Shown here in pieces: positions 8,770 through 57,027 of a DNA stretch of 64,000 nt. This DNA is from Phocaeicola coprocola DSM 17136 (GTDB lineage Bacteria > Bacteroidota > Bacteroidia > Bacteroidales > Bacteroidaceae): NCBI RefSeq assembly GCF_000154845.1, contig NZ_DS981484.1, positions 1 through 64,000 of the forward strand, written 5' to 3'. The notes beneath the pieces are model-generated. The model saw only the letters and a list, made by a program, of their open reading frames with translations, searched no databases and was not told the origin of the DNA. Made by a program: the position numbers and the translations under genes. Each line of letters opens with the position of its first letter. The stretch's first letter is position 1.

Positions 8770-10434
8770 ATGGAAACAACAAGCAGTTTAATACAACTTA
8801 TTGAAGAAAGCATCCGTAAAAACTGGAATCTGGATGCAATGACAGACTACAAGGGAGCTACCTTACAATACAAAGATGTAGCGCGCAAAATAGAAAAGAT
8901 GCATATTCTATTCGAACATGCAGGTATAAAAAAAGGAGATAAAATCGCGCTCTGCGGTAGAAACAGCGCAAACTGGACTGCAACATTTCTCGGTGTTATC
9001 ACTTATGGAGCAGTAGCCGTCCCTATCCTTCACGAATTCAAAGCCGATAATGTACATAATATAGTAAACCATTCGGAAGCACGTATGCTGTTCGTGGGCG
9101 ATCAGGTGTGGGAAAATTTCAACGAAGCTGCCATGCCTCATCTGGAAGGTATCATCGAGCTGAAGAACTTCGATCTGGTTGTTTCACGCTCGCAACGTCT
9201 TACCTATGCCCGTGAACATCTGAATGAAGAATTCGGAAAACGTTATCCTTGCCGCTTCCGTGCGGAGAATGTATCTTATCGCCGCGAAGAACCGGAAGAG
9301 CTGGCTGTCATCAATTACACATCGGGTACAACCGGATATTCGAAAGGAGTAATGCTTCCTTATCGCAGCATTATCTCGAATGTAGTACACATTCATAAAA
9401 AAGTAGGTTTGAAACCTGGCGACAATGTGGTATCAATGTTGCCGTTAGGACACATTTTCGGCCTGGTTTTCGATTTTATTTATGGAGTAACCGTGGGCGC
9501 GCACTTATGGTTCCTTACACGCATGCCCTCACCTAAAATCATTGCCGAGTCATTTGCTGAAATACGTCCGCGTGTCATAGCATGTGTTCCTCTCATCGTC
9601 GAGAAGATTTTCAAGAAGAATATTCTGCCTAAAGTAGACAACAAACTGGGGAAACTCCTGCTGAAACTGCCTATCGTCAGTGATAAGATAAAAGAACAGA
9701 TCCGCACACAGGCTATGGAGGTATTTGGAGGTAACTTTATCGAAATAGTAATCGGAGGTGCACCTTTCAATCCTGAGGTAGAGGCATTTTTACGAAAAAT
9801 CAACTTCCCCTACACCATTGCCTACGGAATGACAGAAGCCGCTCCGCTTATCTGCCACAGTCGCTGGGATGAAATACAGTACACATCGTGTGGAAAAACA
9901 GTTTCGAATATGGAAACAAAGGTATTGTCATCCGATCCGGAACGTATCCCGGGAGAACTGGTATGCCGGGGAATGAATGTCATGCTGGGTTATTACAAGA
10001 ACGAGGAAGCCACAGCACAGGCTATCGATTGCAATGGCTGGCTTCATACAGGCGACATGGCCATCAAGGATGCCGAGGGAAATATTTTCATTAAGGGGCG
10101 CTGCAAGAACATGCTGCTTACAGCTTCCGGACAAAACATTTACCCTGAGGAAATTGAAGCCCGTTTGAACAACATGCCTTTCGTAAACGAATCGCTTGTC
10201 ATTCTGGCTGGAGACAAGCTTATCGCACTGGTTTATCCAGACAATGAAGAAGCCTTTGCACAAGGTATGGACAAAAAAGCGCTGGAAGCAGCCATCGAGG
10301 TCAACCGTACAGAGCTTAACAAAATGCTGCCGGCTTATTCACAAATTACCCGTATCAAACTCTATCCTGAAGAGTTCGAGAAAACAGCTAAAAAGAGCAT
10401 CAAACGTTTTCTTTATCAGGATATCAAAGAATAA
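8770..10434 (+). CDS. Long-chain acyl-CoA ligase (AMP-binding enzyme)
   Basis: Activates fatty acids to acyl-CoA through an acyl-adenylate, in the cytoplasm or at the inner membrane. 554 residues counted from METTSS. The frame could be extended 20 codons upstream, but the promoter element at 8729-8736 falls within that extension. Motifs: YTSGTTGYSKGVML (P-loop-like), YGMTEAAPLI and the LHTGDMA/GRCKNM hinge region near the C-terminus. It is a FadD/FACL-type member; substrate chain length cannot be told. The gene stands alone, and its apparent terminator (12407-12438) is now separated from it by a group II intron. Confidence 0.88.
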   Translation: METTSSLIQLIEESIRKNWNLDAMTDYKGATLQYKDVARKIEKMHILFEHAGIKKGDKIALCGRNSANWTATFLGVITYGAVAVPILHEFKADNVHNIVNHSEARMLFVGDQVWENFNEAAMPHLEGIIELKNFDLVVSRSQRLTYAREHLNEEFGKRYPCRFRAENVSYRREEPEELAVINYTSGTTGYSKGVMLPYRSIISNVVHIHKKVGLKPGDNVVSMLPLGHIFGLVFDFIYGVTVGAHLWFLTRMPSPKIIAESFAEIRPRVIACVPLIVEKIFKKNILPKVDNKLGKLLLKLPIVSDKIKEQIRTQAMEVFGGNFIEIVIGGAPFNPEVEAFLRKINFPYTIAYGMTEAAPLICHSRWDEIQYTSCGKTVSNMETKVLSSDPERIPGELVCRGMNVMLGYYKNEEATAQAIDCNGWLHTGDMAIKDAEGNIFIKGRCKNMLLTASGQNIYPEEIEARLNNMPFVNESLVILAGDKLIALVYPDNEEAFAQGMDKKALEAAIEVNRTELNKMLPAYSQITRIKLYPEEFEKTAKKSIKRFLYQDIKE

Positions 10435-10534
10435 TAAAAAACATTGTTGTCCGACAAAATCAATTTAAATCGAGTAGGAGGTAAACATTAATCATAGGTG
10501 TTTATCTCCTATTTTCATGTTCACCGACCTCTCA

Positions 10535-10569
10535 CACCACCGTACGTGCCGTTCGGCATACGGCGGTTC
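10535..10569 (-). ncRNA. Group II intron domain V
   Basis: Minus-strand ACCGCCGTA and TACGGTGGT arms pair fully (one G:U), with the two-base bulge and a GCC/GGC tip hairpin. The catalytic triad position reads CGC. This is the most conserved ribozyme segment, and its integrity suggests the intron is still splicing-competent. Confidence 0.85.
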
Positions 10570-11976
10570 CTATTTTGGGTACCATTCGAGATACGAGCCC
10601 ATTAAGGTAGGATATCCTGCTTTTCGCAGGCTATCATTATTTATCGCCACTTTCAATATAGGACTGTCAGCGATACGCCAATAACCTTTGCGAGTGTTTC
10701 CCCATTCACATGCCTTATATTTTTCTATACCGCATTTAATGAGGTTTGCCACCTTGGTCTTGGGTTTCTTCCAAGCTTTCCATATACACATACGTATTCT
10801 ACGTCTTAACCACTCATCTGTGTCAAGAAGAAAGCGTTTCATATCGGCAAGGTGATAGTATCCAATCCACCCACGTATGTAATCTTTCAGCTTCTGTTTC
10901 CTCTTGACGTATCCCCATCCATTGCTACGATTAGTCAGCTCTTTGAGGCTCAATTTCATCTTTGCTTTGGATTTAGGGTGTACTGTAAGGCGATATTTGC
11001 CTTTCATTACATAAAAGGAATAACCGAGATACTTCACTCCTCGAACATACGATACTACAGTCTTTTCCTTGTTGACTTTAAGGTATAGAGTTCCCTCTAT
11101 AAATCGGGTTATGGACTCTTTGACTCTTCTTGCTGCCCTTTTGGACTTACAGAATATCATCGAGTCATCGGCATACCGCACAAAAGGAAGTCCTCTGCGT
11201 TCGAGTTCCTTGTCCAGCTCATTGAGCATAATATTACTTAACAATGGACTTAGTGGTCCTCCTTGGGGAGTTCCTTCCTCGCTCACTTCGAACAGACCTT
11301 TGTTCATTACACCGCTTCGGAGATATTTGTGTATCAGACTGACAACTCTGCCGTCTTTAATAGTACGGCTGAGAATTTCTATGAGTTTGCTATGGTTCAC
11401 GGTATCGAAGAAGCGTTCAAGGTCAAGGTCTACAACGTACGTGTAGCCTGTATTGATTATCTCTTGGGCTCCTCTCACCGCGTCATGACAACCTCTTCTC
11501 GGACGGAAGCCATAACTTCTCCTGGAGAATTGTTTCTCATATATAGGACTCAGAACTTGGTTAATGGCTTGTTGCACCAAACGGTCTACCACAGTGGGGA
11601 TTCCTAATAGACGCATCTTGCCATTGTCCTTGGGGATTTCTACCCTTTTGACGGGGTTCGGACGGTAAGAACCGTCCATCAAGGAACGGATGAGCGCATC
11701 TTTGTTGGCTAATAGCCATAAAAACAATTGTTCACATGACATATTGTCGATACCGCCACAGCCCTTGTTTCCAATCACTGCCTTATAGGATCGGTTTAGG
11801 TTCGCAGGACTCAGGATTTGCTCGAAAAGGTGTTCCTTGTCGAATGGTACTTCCACGATGTTGTCTTCACATATCCACATGAAAGTCTGCACTCCCTCAT
11901 ACCATTCGGTTTCCGACCTATCTCTTTGAGGGCAGTCATTAACTTCGGATAATGTTTTCTGCATTCGTTCTTTCAT
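10570..11976 (-). CDS. ltrA: Group II intron reverse transcriptase/maturase
   Basis: Intron-encoded protein that assists splicing and copies the intron into DNA. 468 residues: RT palm and finger blocks from about 100 (LLGIPTVVDRLVQQAI, SYGFRPRRGCHDA, GTPQGGPLSPLLSN) with the catalytic YADD at 268-271, then a maturase (X) domain to the end (GYPTLMGSYLEWYPK). There is no HNH endonuclease, as expected for class C introns. LDKELERRG before the YADD box is typical of class C. The frame is intact, with no stop or frameshift. It lies wholly inside the intron RNA. Confidence 0.95.
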   Translation of the reverse strand: MKERMQKTLSEVNDCPQRDRSETEWYEGVQTFMWICEDNIVEVPFDKEHLFEQILSPANLNRSYKAVIGNKGCGGIDNMSCEQLFLWLLANKDALIRSLMDGSYRPNPVKRVEIPKDNGKMRLLGIPTVVDRLVQQAINQVLSPIYEKQFSRRSYGFRPRRGCHDAVRGAQEIINTGYTYVVDLDLERFFDTVNHSKLIEILSRTIKDGRVVSLIHKYLRSGVMNKGLFEVSEEGTPQGGPLSPLLSNIMLNELDKELERRGLPFVRYADDSMIFCKSKRAARRVKESITRFIEGTLYLKVNKEKTVVSYVRGVKYLGYSFYVMKGKYRLTVHPKSKAKMKLSLKELTNRSNGWGYVKRKQKLKDYIRGWIGYYHLADMKRFLLDTDEWLRRRIRMCIWKAWKKPKTKVANLIKCGIEKYKACEWGNTRKGYWRIADSPILKVAINNDSLRKAGYPTLMGSYLEWYPK

Positions 11977-12406
11977 TAGGTATGTTTCAATTACTATCGT
12001 TTAATTATTAGGTTCAGTCCTTCGCAAACCTATCGGCTCGTTTGCTACTATGACTTCTGCTGACTTCTCACGGCAAGCTTTACTCCGCTGATTTCGATTT
12101 TTTTCTATTTTCATGCGTCCGTGAGACCTCCTCGGATAAGGGTATTAACTTTCAATCTTATGTCTGCTTCATCTACATTAACCGTTCCGAATAGCTATAG
12201 GGCTTTGGTTTGGGTAGCAACCTTACCCACGGTTTTTATGCCTTATATGAAGTTTCTGTTCGTCAGACCAGATGTTTGCCGCCAGCTTCTTTCAGATTCC
12301 ACCTCACGATGGACACCCTTGCTATTGGCTGTATGATTCCCGCTATTAGGGCTCATTGGGGACTTGCACCCGTTAGCTAATACTCATACCGAGCATACTA
12401 TCAGGA

Positions 12407-18282: not shown

Positions 18283-19557
18283 TTATTCTTTAAAGCGATC
18301 GCCCCACAACTGTACCATACGATCTTTTAATTTAGCTTCTGAAGGATTTTCCTGTGCATGCCAAAGACGATTATGACATACTTCATCGGGTAAAAACTGT
18401 TGTTTCACAAAATTGCCCTTATAAGCATGAGCATACTTATATTCCTTTCCATATCCTAACTGCTTCATCAGCTTAGTCGGAGCATTACGTAAATGAAGCG
18501 GAACCGGAAGATTCCCTGTCTGACGAACCAGCTCAAGAGCAGAATTAATCCCTTCGTAGGCAGAGTTGCTTTTGGGACTTGTTGCCAGATAAACTGTAGC
18601 CTCAGCCAACGGAATTCTTCCTTCCGGCCAACCGATTTTCATCACGGCATCGAAAGCTGCGTTTGCAAGCAGCAATGCATTCGGATTAGCAAGACCGATA
18701 TCTTCGGAAGCAGAAATGACAAGACGGCGCGCAATAAAAGCAGGATCTTCCCCACCCTCTACCATACGTGCAAGCCAGTACAATGCCCCATCCGGATCGC
18801 TTCCTCGAATAGACTTAATAAAAGCAGAAATAATGTCGTAGTGCATTTCTCCATCTTTGTCATAAGCCAGCGGATTCTGCTGCAAACGCTCCACAACCTT
18901 ATCATCTGTTATCACAACAGGCACGTTATCGTCTGCTTCTACTACCAGCTCCAGTATATTCAACAGTTTTCGGGCATCTCCTCCCGAATAACGTAGCATA
19001 GCATCTGTTTCACGCAATTCCACTTGTTTCTCTTTCAGAATAACATCCGTAGTTATCGCATGATGCAACAGTTCAAGCAAGTCATCTTTTTCAAGAGATT
19101 TCAATACATAAAGCTGGCAACGGGAAAGCAAGGGACGGATTACCTCAAATGAAGGATTTTCAGTTGTTGCCCCTATCAAGGTAACTACTCCTGTTTCTAC
19201 TGCTCCCAGTAACGAATCTTGTTGCGATTTACTGAAACGATGTATTTCATCGATAAAAAGAATGGGACTCTGTTGCGAAAAAAAACGATTGCTCCGTGCC
19301 TTATCAATAACATCACGTACATCTTTCACTCCCGACGTAACTGCACTCAATGTATAAAAAGGAGTTTCCAGGCGGTTTGCAATAATCTGTGCCAACGTAG
19401 TCTTTCCCACGCCCGGAGGCCCCCATAAAATAAAAGAAGAGATGCGTCCGGAATCAATCATCCTTCTCAGCACCGCCCCTTCTCCTACCAAATGTTTTTG
19501 TCCTATATAGTCGTCCAGTGTCTTCGGACGCATGCGTTCAGCCAATGGTTGAGCCAT
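18283..19557 (-). CDS. rarA: Replication-associated recombination protein A (RarA/MgsA)
   Basis: AAA+ ATPase of the clamp-loader family that acts at stalled replication forks. 424 residues. Walker A GPPGVGKTTLAQ (about 46), Walker B ILFIDEIHRF and sensor 1 GATTENPSFE are clear. The C-terminal MgsA tetramerisation domain includes GSDPDGALYWLARM and ASEDIGLANP. It is first in an operon with the dehydrogenase and the C_GCAxxG protein. A TATTTTTG element at 19613-19620 is a likely promoter. Confidence 0.95.
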   Translation of the reverse strand: MAQPLAERMRPKTLDDYIGQKHLVGEGAVLRRMIDSGRISSFILWGPPGVGKTTLAQIIANRLETPFYTLSAVTSGVKDVRDVIDKARSNRFFSQQSPILFIDEIHRFSKSQQDSLLGAVETGVVTLIGATTENPSFEVIRPLLSRCQLYVLKSLEKDDLLELLHHAITTDVILKEKQVELRETDAMLRYSGGDARKLLNILELVVEADDNVPVVITDDKVVERLQQNPLAYDKDGEMHYDIISAFIKSIRGSDPDGALYWLARMVEGGEDPAFIARRLVISASEDIGLANPNALLLANAAFDAVMKIGWPEGRIPLAEATVYLATSPKSNSAYEGINSALELVRQTGNLPVPLHLRNAPTKLMKQLGYGKEYKYAHAYKGNFVKQQFLPDEVCHNRLWHAQENPSEAKLKDRMVQLWGDRFKE

Positions 19558-19612
19558 AATATTCTATTTTTTGGAATTTCCTGTATCTTGTATTATATTG
19601 AGAAAAGTTTTT

Positions 19613-19620
19613 CAAAAATA
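19613..19620 (-). promoter_or_regulatory. -7 promoter element (TATTTTTG) for rarA
   Basis: Minus-strand TATTTTTG lies between the small-RNA terminator (19658-19690) and rarA, so rarA need not depend on upstream transcription. No -33 at normal spacing. Confidence 0.45.
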
Positions 19621-19657
19621 AGAAATTATTCTTTTAGAAAGTTCACAAAAAGGCAAT

Positions 19658-19690
19658 AAAAAAAGCCTCTTTTCACAAAGAAGCTTTTTT
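19658..19690 (-). terminator. Minus-strand intrinsic terminator upstream of rarA
   Basis: On the minus strand AAAAAGCTTCTTT and AAAGAGGCTTTTT pair at all 13 positions (one T:G wobble) and end in a T run. On the plus strand one pair would be C:A. It must end a transcript starting in 19692-20018. Confidence 0.75.
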
Positions 19691-19856
19691 AAGTTTTCAA
19701 TAGGTATTAGTTTTTTTTAAGGTAAAAAGATTGTTTTCAGGATAACGCTACAAAGATGAGAGCTTTTTTTGAACTAAACAAATAAAAAACTATGTCTTAA
19801 AACACGTTTATCGTTTTTCTTTGTTTACATTCTGTCAAACTCCCCCTCCTCAATAG
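19658..19856 (-). ncRNA. Candidate rod-shaped small RNA, possibly 6S-like
   Basis: No protein frame fills this 520-base gap. On the minus strand a TATCTTTG element (19862-19869) is followed about 170 bases later by a terminator hairpin that is fully paired only on this strand. Between them, nested pairings form one long rod: 19851-54/19730-33, 19847-50/19739-42, 19840-42/19758-60, 19835-39/19768-73, 19820-27/19775-82, 19814-18/19784-89 and 19801-05/19793-96, with a large one-sided bulge at 19743-19757. Length (about 200 nt), rod shape and internal bulge recall 6S RNA. Many pairings are short and AT-rich and were found by hand, so identity is tentative. Confidence 0.4.
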
Positions 19857-19861
19857 TATGA

Positions 19862-19869
19862 CAAAGATA
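19862..19869 (-). promoter_or_regulatory. -7 promoter element (TATCTTTG) for the candidate small RNA
   Basis: Minus-strand TATCTTTG in the gene-free region between rarA and glnS; the predicted start is near 19856. Confidence 0.5.
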
Positions 19870-20018
19870 TAAAATCTTTCTTAAAATAAAGAGTTTGCAG
19901 CCTTTTTTCTCTCTTTTGTAAAAATAATACATATTTGCTACCTTATAAAAAAGAATTTATTTTATAGTTTAGTAAACAGTATCACCTCTCTTTTATAGGT
20001 AGTTCAGGAAAGAATCAT

Positions 20019-20026
20019 TATTTTTG
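20019..20026 (+). promoter_or_regulatory. -7 promoter element (TATTTTTG) for glnS
   Basis: TATTTTTG, 51 bases before the glnS ATG. The rest of 19870-20077 is AT-rich with nothing else recognised. Confidence 0.55.
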
Positions 20027-20077
20027 CACACAAAAGCGCGAAAACGCAAAAAAGTAAAAGTGTAAAACGAAAACGCT

Positions 20078-21817
20078 ATGACAGAAATGAACGTAACGGA
20101 AAGTTCTGAAAAGAAAAGCCTGAACTTTATTGAGCAGATTGTTGAAAAAGATTTAAAGGAGGGAAAAAACGGAGGAAGAATACAAACCCGATTCCCGCCT
20201 GAGCCAAACGGATATTTACACATTGGCCATGCTAAGGCTATTTGCATGGACTTCGGTATTGCCCAACGATATGGTGGAGTATGCAACTTGCGTTTTGACG
20301 ATACAAATCCTACAAAAGAAGATGTAGAATATGTAGAAGCGATAAAAGAAGATATTCAGTGGTTGGGATACCAGTGGGGAAATGAATATTATGCTTCCGA
20401 CTATTTCCAACAATTATGGGACTTTGCCATCCGTCTTATCAAGGAAGGTAAAGCATATATAGACGAACAAACTTCAGAAGAAATTGCAGCCCAAAAAGGA
20501 ACTCCTACACAACCGGGAGTAGAAAGTCCATACCGTAACCGACCGATAGAGGAAAGCCTTGAATTGTTCCAGAAAATGAACAACGGCGAAATAGAGGAAG
20601 GTAAAATGGTGCTCCGTGCCAAGATAGATATGGCCAATCCTAATATGCACTTCCGCGATCCTATTATCTACCGTGTAGTAAAAACTCCTCACCACCGTAC
20701 GGGTGATAAATGGAAAGCATATCCTATGTACGATTTCGCACACGGACAGAGCGATTTCTTCGAAGGAGTAACTCACTCATTGTGTACGTTGGAGTTTGTT
20801 GTACACCGTCCGTTGTATGACTTGTTCGTCGATTGGGTAAAAGACGGAAAAGATCTTGACGATAACCGTCCTCACCAGTATGAGTTCAACAAGCTGAATT
20901 TGAGCTACACGCTGATGAGTAAGCGTAACTTGCTGATTCTAGTAAAAGAAGGACTGGTAAACGGCTGGGACGATCCTCGTATGCCGACTATTTGCGCATT
21001 CCGCCGCAGAGGATATTCTCCGGAATCTATCCGCAAGTTTATCGATAAGATCGGTTATACCACCTACGATGCCTTGAACGATTTCGCATTGCTGGAAAGT
21101 GCTGTTCGTGAAGACTTGAATGCACGTTCTACACGAGTATCAGCTGTTTTGAATCCGGTAAAACTGATCTTGACTAACTATCCGGAAGGAAAAGTAGAAG
21201 AAATGGAAGCCATCAATAATCCGGAAGATCCGAACTCTCCTACTCATACTATTGAGTTCAGCCGTGAATTATGGATGGAACGTGAAGACTTTATGGAAGA
21301 TGCTCCAAAAAAATTCTTCCGTATGACTCCGGGACAGGAAGTTCGTCTGAAAAATGCATATATCGTAAAATGTACCGGATGCAAGAAAGACGAAAACGGA
21401 AACATCGTAGAAGTATACGCCGAATACGATCCGAATACCAAGAGCGGAATGCCAGAAGCTAACCGTAAAGTGAAAGGTACACTGCACTGGGTAAGCTGCA
21501 ATCATTGCTTGAAAGCAGAAGTACGCTTGTACGACCGCTTGTGGAAAGTAGAAAATCCTCGTGATGAAATGGCTGCTATCCGCGAAGCCAAGAACTGTTC
21601 AGCGTTGGAAGCTATGCAGGAAATGATAAATCCAGACTCGCTGAAAGTTTTGAAGGAATGTTATGTAGAAAAGTTCCTTGCAGATGCAAAACCGCTTGAC
21701 TACTTGCAGTTCCAGCGTATCGGATACTTTAATGTTGACAAAGATTCTACCCCTGAACACTTGGTATTTAACCGTACCGTATCACTTAAAGATACCTGGA
21801 GTAAGATCAACAAATAA
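20078..21817 (+). CDS. glnS: Glutaminyl-tRNA synthetase
   Basis: Class I aminoacyl-tRNA synthetase that charges tRNA-Gln. 579 residues. The HIGH signature is in PPEPNGYLHIGHAKA (about 47) and the KMSKS-type loop in LMSKR (about 288). FDDTNPTKEDVEYVEAI is typical of GlnRS rather than GluRS. Near the C-terminus, CTGCKK (about 429) and SCNHC (about 474) form two CxxC pairs that might bind zinc. Transcribed alone, and followed by an unusually long layered hairpin at 21848-21938. Confidence 0.96.
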   Translation: MTEMNVTESSEKKSLNFIEQIVEKDLKEGKNGGRIQTRFPPEPNGYLHIGHAKAICMDFGIAQRYGGVCNLRFDDTNPTKEDVEYVEAIKEDIQWLGYQWGNEYYASDYFQQLWDFAIRLIKEGKAYIDEQTSEEIAAQKGTPTQPGVESPYRNRPIEESLELFQKMNNGEIEEGKMVLRAKIDMANPNMHFRDPIIYRVVKTPHHRTGDKWKAYPMYDFAHGQSDFFEGVTHSLCTLEFVVHRPLYDLFVDWVKDGKDLDDNRPHQYEFNKLNLSYTLMSKRNLLILVKEGLVNGWDDPRMPTICAFRRRGYSPESIRKFIDKIGYTTYDALNDFALLESAVREDLNARSTRVSAVLNPVKLILTNYPEGKVEEMEAINNPEDPNSPTHTIEFSRELWMEREDFMEDAPKKFFRMTPGQEVRLKNAYIVKCTGCKKDENGNIVEVYAEYDPNTKSGMPEANRKVKGTLHWVSCNHCLKAEVRLYDRLWKVENPRDEMAAIREAKNCSALEAMQEMINPDSLKVLKECYVEKFLADAKPLDYLQFQRIGYFNVDKDSTPEHLVFNRTVSLKDTWSKINK

Positions 21818-56661: not shown

Positions 56662-56794
56662 GATTATAATAATTTATCGGTCTACAATAAACAAAGCAAT
56701 ATGAGAAATAATCATTCTCACATCAGCTTCCTCAATATTAACATAGTAAAAACATAGTTCTTGCTACTCTTTCCTCGAGAGCACAAGCATGATT

Positions 56795-56990
56795 TCGTTT
56801 TGCAGGTCTTCTGACTTACTCCGGTTTGTTATGCCTTCCCACTTTCTCAAACAGAAGAAAGCAGTGGCCTGAAGTAGTAAACAAACCTTTACAAAGGAGC
56901 TTACAGCAGCGGGACTGTCCGGGACTTTCACCCGATTCCCTTTTCATCCGTGGCCTCGCATATACCAATCGGAAGCCCGACGGAACAAAA
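56795..56990 (-). promoter_or_regulatory. Cobalamin riboswitch
   Basis: Minus-strand conserved blocks in order: GGCCACGG-type P3 segment, GGGAATCGGGTGAAAGTCCC, GACAGTCCCGCTGCTGTAA, GGCCACTG and GGGAAGGC peripheral helix, and the B12 box AGTCAGAAGACCTGC (plus-strand 56802-56816). This is the AdoCbl-type aptamer. It lies about 130 bases ahead of btuF in the same direction. The 56662-56794 stretch between box and gene is the expression platform region; I saw no clear terminator in it. Confidence 0.95.
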
Positions 56991-56996
56991 CTGTGA

Positions 56997-57027
56997 CAAA
57001 TATATGCAATAAGTACTTATAATGCAA
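56997..57027 (-). promoter_or_regulatory. Promoter of the riboswitch operon (TTG-N20-TATATTTG)
   Basis: The -7 element TATATTTG is at 56997-57004 and the -33 TTG at 57025-57027, both minus strand, just ahead of the riboswitch 5' end. Confidence 0.65.

Follow-up and report, generated by a model that had tools for sequence, protein, structure and literature searches.

Results

A small RNA gene in the gap between rarA and glnS

We analysed the first 64,000 nt of contig NZ_DS981484.1 of Phocaeicola coprocola DSM 17136 (hereafter the window). As read from the sequence, the 520 bp that separate rarA (18283-19557, minus strand) from the divergent glnS (20078-21817, plus strand) carry a small RNA gene on the minus strand, with rarA as its downstream neighbour. 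The rarA open reading frame was named from NCBIfam AAA family ATPase and RarA models (the best 25 of 62, all under their cutoffs) together with the label in an earlier note on this DNA, and glnS was assigned by NCBIfam TIGR00440, which scored above its cutoff.

When the gap was scanned against all Rfam families, the single strong match was RF04184 (BTnc060), which covered 19658-19862 on the minus strand and the complete model (1-213 of 213) at 121.5 bits (E 3.4e-21). Because the gathering score of RF04184 is 228.9, the locus is a BTnc060 homologue and not a threshold member of the family. In the alignment of the RF04184 consensus structure with the window, the terminator was retained and the outer helix contained many non-standard pairs. 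Judged by this homology, a real, dedicated and terminated small RNA gene lies on the minus strand upstream of rarA, so that this part of the earlier proposal of a short non-coding transcript of about 200 nt stands. As for the length, a form of about 205 nt would fit the Rfam boundaries (19658-19862, minus strand), with a distal promoter box next to them. The TTTG box, the conserved core and the fold predict in addition a short RNA of about 90-94 nt (19655-19748, minus strand), starting at about 19744-19748 and ending at the T run of the terminator. Folded alone, the 95-nt RNA had an open 5' part up to the terminator (z -2.35).

The intrinsic terminator (19659-19690, minus strand) consists of a 14-pair stem capped by a GTGA loop and followed by a T run, and its stem carries a mismatch when read on the plus strand, which agrees with the strand specificity claimed in the earlier note. 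The separate rarA promoter placed after the terminator in that note was also traceable, as a possible -7 box TATTTTTG at 19613-19620 (minus strand) that matches the consensus and nothing further.

Conservation of the core, the terminator and the rod

The most conserved part of the RNA is an unpaired core of about 55 nt with the layout GTTATCCTGAAAACAATCTTTTTACCTT, A-rich linker, CTAATACCTATTGAAAACT. Its first part, M1 (GTTATCCTGAAAACAATCTTTTTACCTT, 19719-19746, minus strand), is unpaired; its second part, M2 (CTAATACCTATTGAAAACT, 19692-19710, minus strand), is by complement searches the predicted seed for mRNA leaders. Within the core, 48 of the 57 columns were invariant in 23 copies and 49 of 57 in 11, compared with 9/20 columns in the dyad region and 14/45 in the promoter region among the 23 sequences; of the columns lying 100-150 nt upstream of CAATC, none was invariant in these 23. 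The exact core 26-mer occurred in 60 of the 395 loci examined, repeats of the window copy included, and a search for it in viral contigs gave no match. M2 differs in some genera, for instance in copies ending ACCTAAAAAACT. One small RNA copy (L114, on G097:C4) contained a tandem duplication of the 28-nt M1 unit.

The earlier note had also described a series of nested pairings that form one rod. The 211-nt fold had a z of -1.39, and 19 of 200 shuffles folded equally well. In 23 aligned sequences, the window included, the 36 rod pairs were formed in 52.5% of cells, compared with 50.1% after shuffling (7/500 shuffles reached 52.5%) and 42-47% when one side was slid by 1-3 columns. Changes on both sides were found at 21 pairs compared with 20.3 in shuffles (227/500 as high), and the covariation score was 0.170 compared with 0.145 (12/500 as high), one slid version giving 0.167. 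A separate script counted 49% of cells as paired for 22 relatives and 54% for 10, with 41-51% for slid versions, and both-side changes at 21/36 rod pairs (22 relatives) and 8/36 (10 relatives). According to the counting tool's own note, the small excess is of a size that relatedness and the taking of the fold from one row can explain. These counts are not good evidence for the rod. RNAalifold, run on 11 and on 23 sequences, returned only a 5-pair hairpin and the terminator, without the rod; this hairpin is the operator dyad treated in a later section, and the rod spans promoter and operator DNA. Given the small pair excess, the long form may keep some structure.

The terminator behaved differently in the same counts: its pairs were formed in 98.1% of cells compared with 83.2% in shuffles, no shuffle of 500 equalled its score, and 7 of its 14 pairs were altered on both sides among the 23 sequences. 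The refuting condition named in the earlier note, a lack of conserved pairing in relatives, thus applies to the rod, which is not clearly kept, and does not apply to the terminator. Conservation of the core rules out that the region is only an AT-rich rarA leader.

Proximal and distal promoters

Inside the rod lies a second promoter (19751-19782, minus strand), which, like the near-invariant core of about 55 nt, was absent from the earlier note. Its -7 box CATCTTTG occupies 19751-19758 and its -33 element TTTG, recognised by the spacing across copies, occupies 19779-19782 (both minus strand). The reported consensus of the primary sigma factor in Bacteroides is TAnnTTTG / TTTG (PMC7366714). Promoter and dyad were counted from 95 loci, of which three without the anchor were left out: L104 and L112, both with a variant core, and L178, where the only match was inside glnS. 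A TTTG box was located at most 32 nt from CAATC in 91 of the remaining 92 copies, and in 80 it preceded CAATC by 17 or 18 nt; the 92nd copy, L114, had no box within reach, hence 91 copies were scored. The full TAnnTTTG was present in 58/91 copies, and A at position 2 in 88/91. For the -33 element, TTTG was found at a spacing of 19-21 in 65/91 copies and TTG at 17-22 in 85/91.

The promoter box reported in the earlier note is the distal -7 box TATCTTTG (19862-19869, minus strand), and it was borne out among close relatives: of 19 testable copies from the two nearest genus groups, 16 had TAnnTTTG 136-174 nt before CAATC, namely 10/10 in the genus group of the window and 6/9 in the other. Over all copies, TAnnTTTG anywhere from -220 to -95 was present in 24/88, compared with 7.7% in shuffles. 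Long and short forms may therefore both exist in the two nearest groups, and only the short form would be general. As the BTnc060 boundaries in Rfam start at the distal promoter, the long form may nevertheless be the main one.

A Cur-type operator at a fixed distance from the proximal promoter

Upstream of the proximal promoter, a dyad CGTGTTTTAAGACATA (19791-19806, minus strand) agrees at 11 of the 14 specified positions with the published BT4338/Cur consensus, wwwTATGTTnTAnAACATAwww (PMC3878776, PMC6989115). A dyad scoring at least 10/14 was located at -51 to -53 from the -7 TTTG in 75/91 copies, and four copies (L122, L127, L176 and L177) carried perfect dyads (14/14). In composition-shuffled flanks a score of 10 was reached anywhere in the stretch in 14.8%. 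Most of the dyad-bearing copies were found by the Rfam model, which itself spans the promoter region; the five copies found without that model, two via rarA (L010 and L021) and three via the M2 complement (L285, L307 and L350), all carry the dyad at the usual place with a score of 12 or 13.

The dyad was absent in some copies, for example L123, L126, L128, L129 and L155. These five belong to one genus group (g6), glnS is likewise absent from their flanks, and they have a CACA-rich stretch in common, which suggests that the two copies are differently controlled. In another genus group, four RF04184 matches were obtained per genome (L147-L154, from G049 and G023), with most cores diverged; four of these eight copies (L148, L149, L151 and L154) had no Cur-type dyad at the usual place.

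Neighbours and distribution of the small RNA copies

Among 88 copies (L285, L307 and L350 were left out of this count), glnS was in the flank of 43 and rarA in the flank of 13, which makes glnS the broader synteny partner. The association with rarA is not general: in a strict scan with a flank of up to 1.5 kb, the core was found at 2 of the 80 named rarA loci, upstream of rarA in L010, which was placed in the window's genus group on the basis of 91% RarA identity, and downstream of rarA on the opposite strand in L021.

RF04184 matched 112 of the 151 family genomes at E≤1e-3, none over the gathering score. Several genus groups have two copies per genome and one group has four; the genus group with the highest RF04184 scores (g3) gave one match in each of nine genomes.

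Complementary sites in mRNA leaders

The M2-complement pattern TTTTCAATAGGTATTAG was searched with at most 2 mismatches in 60 same-genus genomes and gave 149 places, 56 of them exact. The 93 inexact places and one exact place (the second in G180), 94 altogether, were classified, 3 being set aside as small RNA copies by an automatic rule. The remaining 91 non-self places comprised 40 in leaders (within 150 nt upstream of the start of a sense open reading frame), 16 inside sense frames, 12 antisense and 23 elsewhere. One of the 40 (L254) is really a second RNA with a doubtful open reading frame, so that the stricter count is 39, and L333, a small RNA copy at a contig end, remained among the other places. 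With the reversed pattern as a control of the same composition in the same genomes, none of 30 places, taken from the 88 listed, fell in a leader, and this leader result was unchanged when the control loci were trimmed to about 1.9 kb. The total number of places with at most 2 mismatches was not raised (91 non-self compared with 88 for the control), whereas 17 non-self places had 1 mismatch compared with 1 for the reversed pattern. Where the 15-mer TTTTCAATAGGTATT was intact, 27 of 32 places were in leaders; the other five were the contig-end copy L333, three sites inside probably over-long reading frames (L241, the second site of L245, and L246) and a leader overlapped by an antisense frame (L249). 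Leader complementarity thus exceeds chance, and the excess lies in leaders and among the 1-mismatch places.

The genes behind these leaders include SusC/RagA receptors, ClpB, GH32 and GH29 enzymes, a sugar transporter, a phosphodiesterase and glutamine synthetase III; the sites reach 17-nt exact complements to M2 in several unrelated gene families. Over 21 leaders, drawn from 33 loci inspected by eye, the mean duplex z was -3.5, a value that is partly built in since the leaders were selected by the seed. The best sites in the window's own genome precede a GH32 gene (L214, duplex z -3.2), a SusC gene (L257, -2.3) and an HU-like gene (L200, -4.0), the last with complements to both M2 and M1. Enrichment of M1 complements was modest: a match of at least 13/15, no more than 120 nt upstream of the M2 site, was found in 9/32 leaders compared with 3.2% in shuffles.

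Within the own genome, the M2 12-mer was rarer than its control (26 compared with 55 places). The M2 17-mer with at most 3 mismatches occurred at 42 places compared with 22, but many of the 42 belong to an IS-like repeat AGCTTTCAAAAGGTATG. A search for M1 complements in the same genome gave 37 places, the small RNA gene included, compared with 24 for the control; many were inside genes and one, the HU-like gene (L200), was a strong leader candidate. Another M1 complement with 1 mismatch (L181) was rejected as a leader site as it sits inside a coding frame.

A second RNA with multiple complementary boxes

Some of the M2-complement places lie in a second predicted RNA, of about 170-300 nt, instead of a leader. 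This RNA was present in 11 genomes including that of the window (L229, contig C64). It comprises a 5' hairpin GTGGTTGTGAAACC, an array of up to 16 boxes (AGGTATTAG, AGGTAA, AGGAT and GTTTTCA) and a terminator-like hairpin (GAACCC-GGGGTTC or GAATCCC-GGGGATTC). A TTTG box usually stands just before the 5' hairpin and is absent in L385. The copy in the window's genome (G000, contig C64, about 9,500-9,800) contains five AGGTATT boxes, four of which are AGGTATTAG within 114 nt, and the frame upstream of it reads like NrdG; the nrdD/nrdG labels at L229 and L254 were read from the protein letters only. Leaders with M2 sites bear the same sense boxes as this RNA. Rfam searches assigned no family to L252 and L254 (E≤0.01) or to L229, L385, L386 and L394 (E≤0.1). 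In the window's genome as a whole, AGGTATTAG is under-represented, with 22 places compared with 93 for the reversed word.

Duplexes between the small RNA and the second RNA were predicted for 11 pairs, of which seven were from the same genome and four combined the window's small RNA with the second RNA of another same-genus genome. All 11 were more stable than expected: when the second RNA was dinucleotide-shuffled, z ranged from -3.4 to -7.4, and when the small RNA was shuffled, from -3.3 to -5.9. Single shuffles came close and one went below the real value (a shuffled small RNA of G041, -35.5 compared with -34.9). In 9 of the 11 pairs, the best duplex includes a stretch ending GGATAAC or GGTAAC opposite the 5' end of the small RNA; for the other two, L252 and L286, it involves a stretch lying further upstream.

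Five of the second-RNA loci (L385, L386, L393, L394 and L395) were found via the 5' hairpin, independently of complementarity to the small RNA; L394 comes from the same genome (G041) as L295. The hairpin pattern was found in 12 of 121 family genomes. The five loci just named had box arrays, and six others (L384, L387, L388 and L390-L392) had 0-3 scattered boxes, L389 being left out. Since at least 6 of the hairpin-pattern loci have no array, the multi-box partner is documented in 11 genomes only.

Discussion

Considering these results together, we think it fairly probable that the locus encodes a trans-acting base-pairing small RNA, linked to Cur, which acts on glycan-uptake mRNAs and is opposed by a sponge-like RNA. 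Under this proposal, Cur, the Crp-type carbon-starvation regulator, would bind the dyad, whose start is some 52 bp upstream of the -7 TTTG. This would most likely activate the proximal promoter and yield an RNA of about 90 nt that ends at the terminator; the distal promoter may also yield a form of about 205 nt in the two nearest genus groups. The open 5' core would then pair via M2, and partly via M1, with boxes in the 5' leaders of mRNAs for SusC-type receptors, glycan enzymes, clpB and the HU-like gene, and translation would most likely be lowered. The second RNA, encoded here downstream of an apparent nrdG, joins an array of AGGTATTAG, AGGTAA and AGGAT boxes to a complement of the whole core; it would pair with the small RNA and most likely sponge it.

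The proposal builds on features read from the sequence, namely the conserved core, the terminator, the promoter and dyad at fixed spacing, the leader-enriched complementarity and the complementary second RNA. From them we infer that the RNA is transcribed in P. coprocola, that Cur binds the dyad and activates, that the targets are repressed and that the second RNA acts as a sponge. We favour repression since, within this clade, a SusC mRNA is repressed by FopS (PMC11697453), and since the sites are close to translation starts; activation of the leaders may occur instead.

Two readings that start from the gap itself have very little in their favour. The likeness to 6S RNA drawn in the earlier note would make the locus the Bacteroides 6S RNA, a rod whose central bulge traps RNA polymerase. 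That note placed 6S genes near rarA in some Firmicutes, and this is true of lactic acid bacteria as well as B. subtilis (PMC8414754); the long form of about 205 nt, its rod-like lowest-energy fold and the small excess of retained pairs would suit such an RNA. However, RF00013 matched nowhere in the genome at E≤10, RF01685 matched elsewhere only (23.1 bits), and no 6S family was among the 27 Rfam matches at E≤10 in 19550-20080, from which the suggested Bacteroidales-1 model (RF01693) was also absent; the 6S, 6S-Flavo and Bacteroidales-1 identities were rejected by these covariance-model searches. RNAalifold did not recover the rod from 23 sequences, the most conserved part is single-stranded, rarA is in the flank of so few copies, and a B. 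theta 6S RNA with pRNAs has been reported separately (PMC7366714), so that we regard the 6S reading as hardly credible. Equally implausible is that no independent RNA exists and that the gap holds just the AT-rich leader of rarA, equipped with a promoter and an attenuator-like terminator: the region does lie directly upstream of rarA in this genome, but core and terminator are kept in copies without rarA in the flank and in further copies at other places of the same genomes, and the homologue is catalogued as a small RNA in Rfam.

The other two readings accept the RNA and assign it another role. An RRM protein (RbpB, for instance) could use the core as a platform, or be trapped by it as a decoy, the leader complementarity being secondary. 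A long, near-invariant and unpaired core with repeated ACCU-like boxes is what such a protein might require, and RbpB is reported to bind the multicopy FopS small RNAs in B. theta (PMC11697453). This is nevertheless unlikely in view of the concentration of complementary sites in leaders (40/91 compared with 0/30) and of the second RNA that complements the core, which would be superfluous if the core were purely a protein platform. We give a similarly low chance to the possibility that the multi-box RNA itself does the regulating, perhaps as an activator or by mimicking a leader, with the window's RNA mainly its antisense inhibitor and the leaders sharing boxes through the same partner. Up to 16 boxes with core-long complementarity, and mRNA leaders carrying the same sense boxes, would be accounted for in this way, but for M2 complements of up to 17 exact nucleotides in unrelated gene families direct pairing is the simpler explanation.

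The reading as a Cur-linked base-pairing RNA has a parallel in MasB (BTnc201), a B. theta small RNA activated by Cur that has a base-pairing mRNA target (PMC10994844). Membership of the Cur regulon together with a base-pairing target is what we predict for the window's RNA as well; the published target of MasB differs, being the mRNA of a tetratricopeptide protein. FopS and GibS resemble it as multicopy small RNAs of Bacteroidaceae with an open 5' seed and a terminator (PMC11697453). However, the FopS family (RF04319) matches the window on the plus strand only, at 21.9 bits with a gathering score of 56, and has 12-15 copies compared with one to four per matching genome for the window's RNA. 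BTnc060 itself shares a full-length match, the core and the terminator with the window's RNA, whereas the Rfam output is silent on the proximal promoter, the Cur-type dyad, the leader sites and the complementary RNA.

In other bacteria, small RNA sponges are second RNAs with multiple sites complementary to a small RNA. The multi-box RNA described here differs in its array of up to 16 boxes with a core-long complement, in its own terminator and in its absence from Rfam. A comparative paper is probably the source of the BTnc060 entry; the name BTnc060 was not found in the papers searched. A literature search of titles and abstract openings yielded no description of the small RNA, its Cur-type site or the multi-box RNA. 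Relative to the literature searched, the putative Cur-type site, leader sites and multi-box RNA therefore appear to be new, and BTnc060 as a catalogued small RNA was already known.

More tentatively, and with the balance of probability against it, the system could be a Bacteroidaceae-wide RNA switch for glycan uptake, in which the ACCU boxes of a Cur-driven small RNA match an AGGTA-box code common to the leaders of SusC, glycan-enzyme and clpB mRNAs. A sponge RNA dedicated to this role and transcribed on its own, with as many as 16 of these boxes besides a complement of the whole core, would then keep the small RNA in balance. SusC-type importers and their enzymes define the diet of gut Bacteroidaceae. 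If true, the proposal would add a conserved post-transcriptional arm to the Cur carbon-starvation response, with targets predicted down to the pairing bases and a sponge RNA predicted at a known place, and it would correct the likely 5' end of BTnc060, a catalogued small RNA on which the literature searched contained no study.

Elsewhere in the window, pieces of a group II intron (RF02001, RF01998 and RF00029) were recognised above their gathering scores at 10469-12313 (minus strand), and a cobalamin riboswitch was located at 56784-57004 (minus strand) with 90.8 bits.
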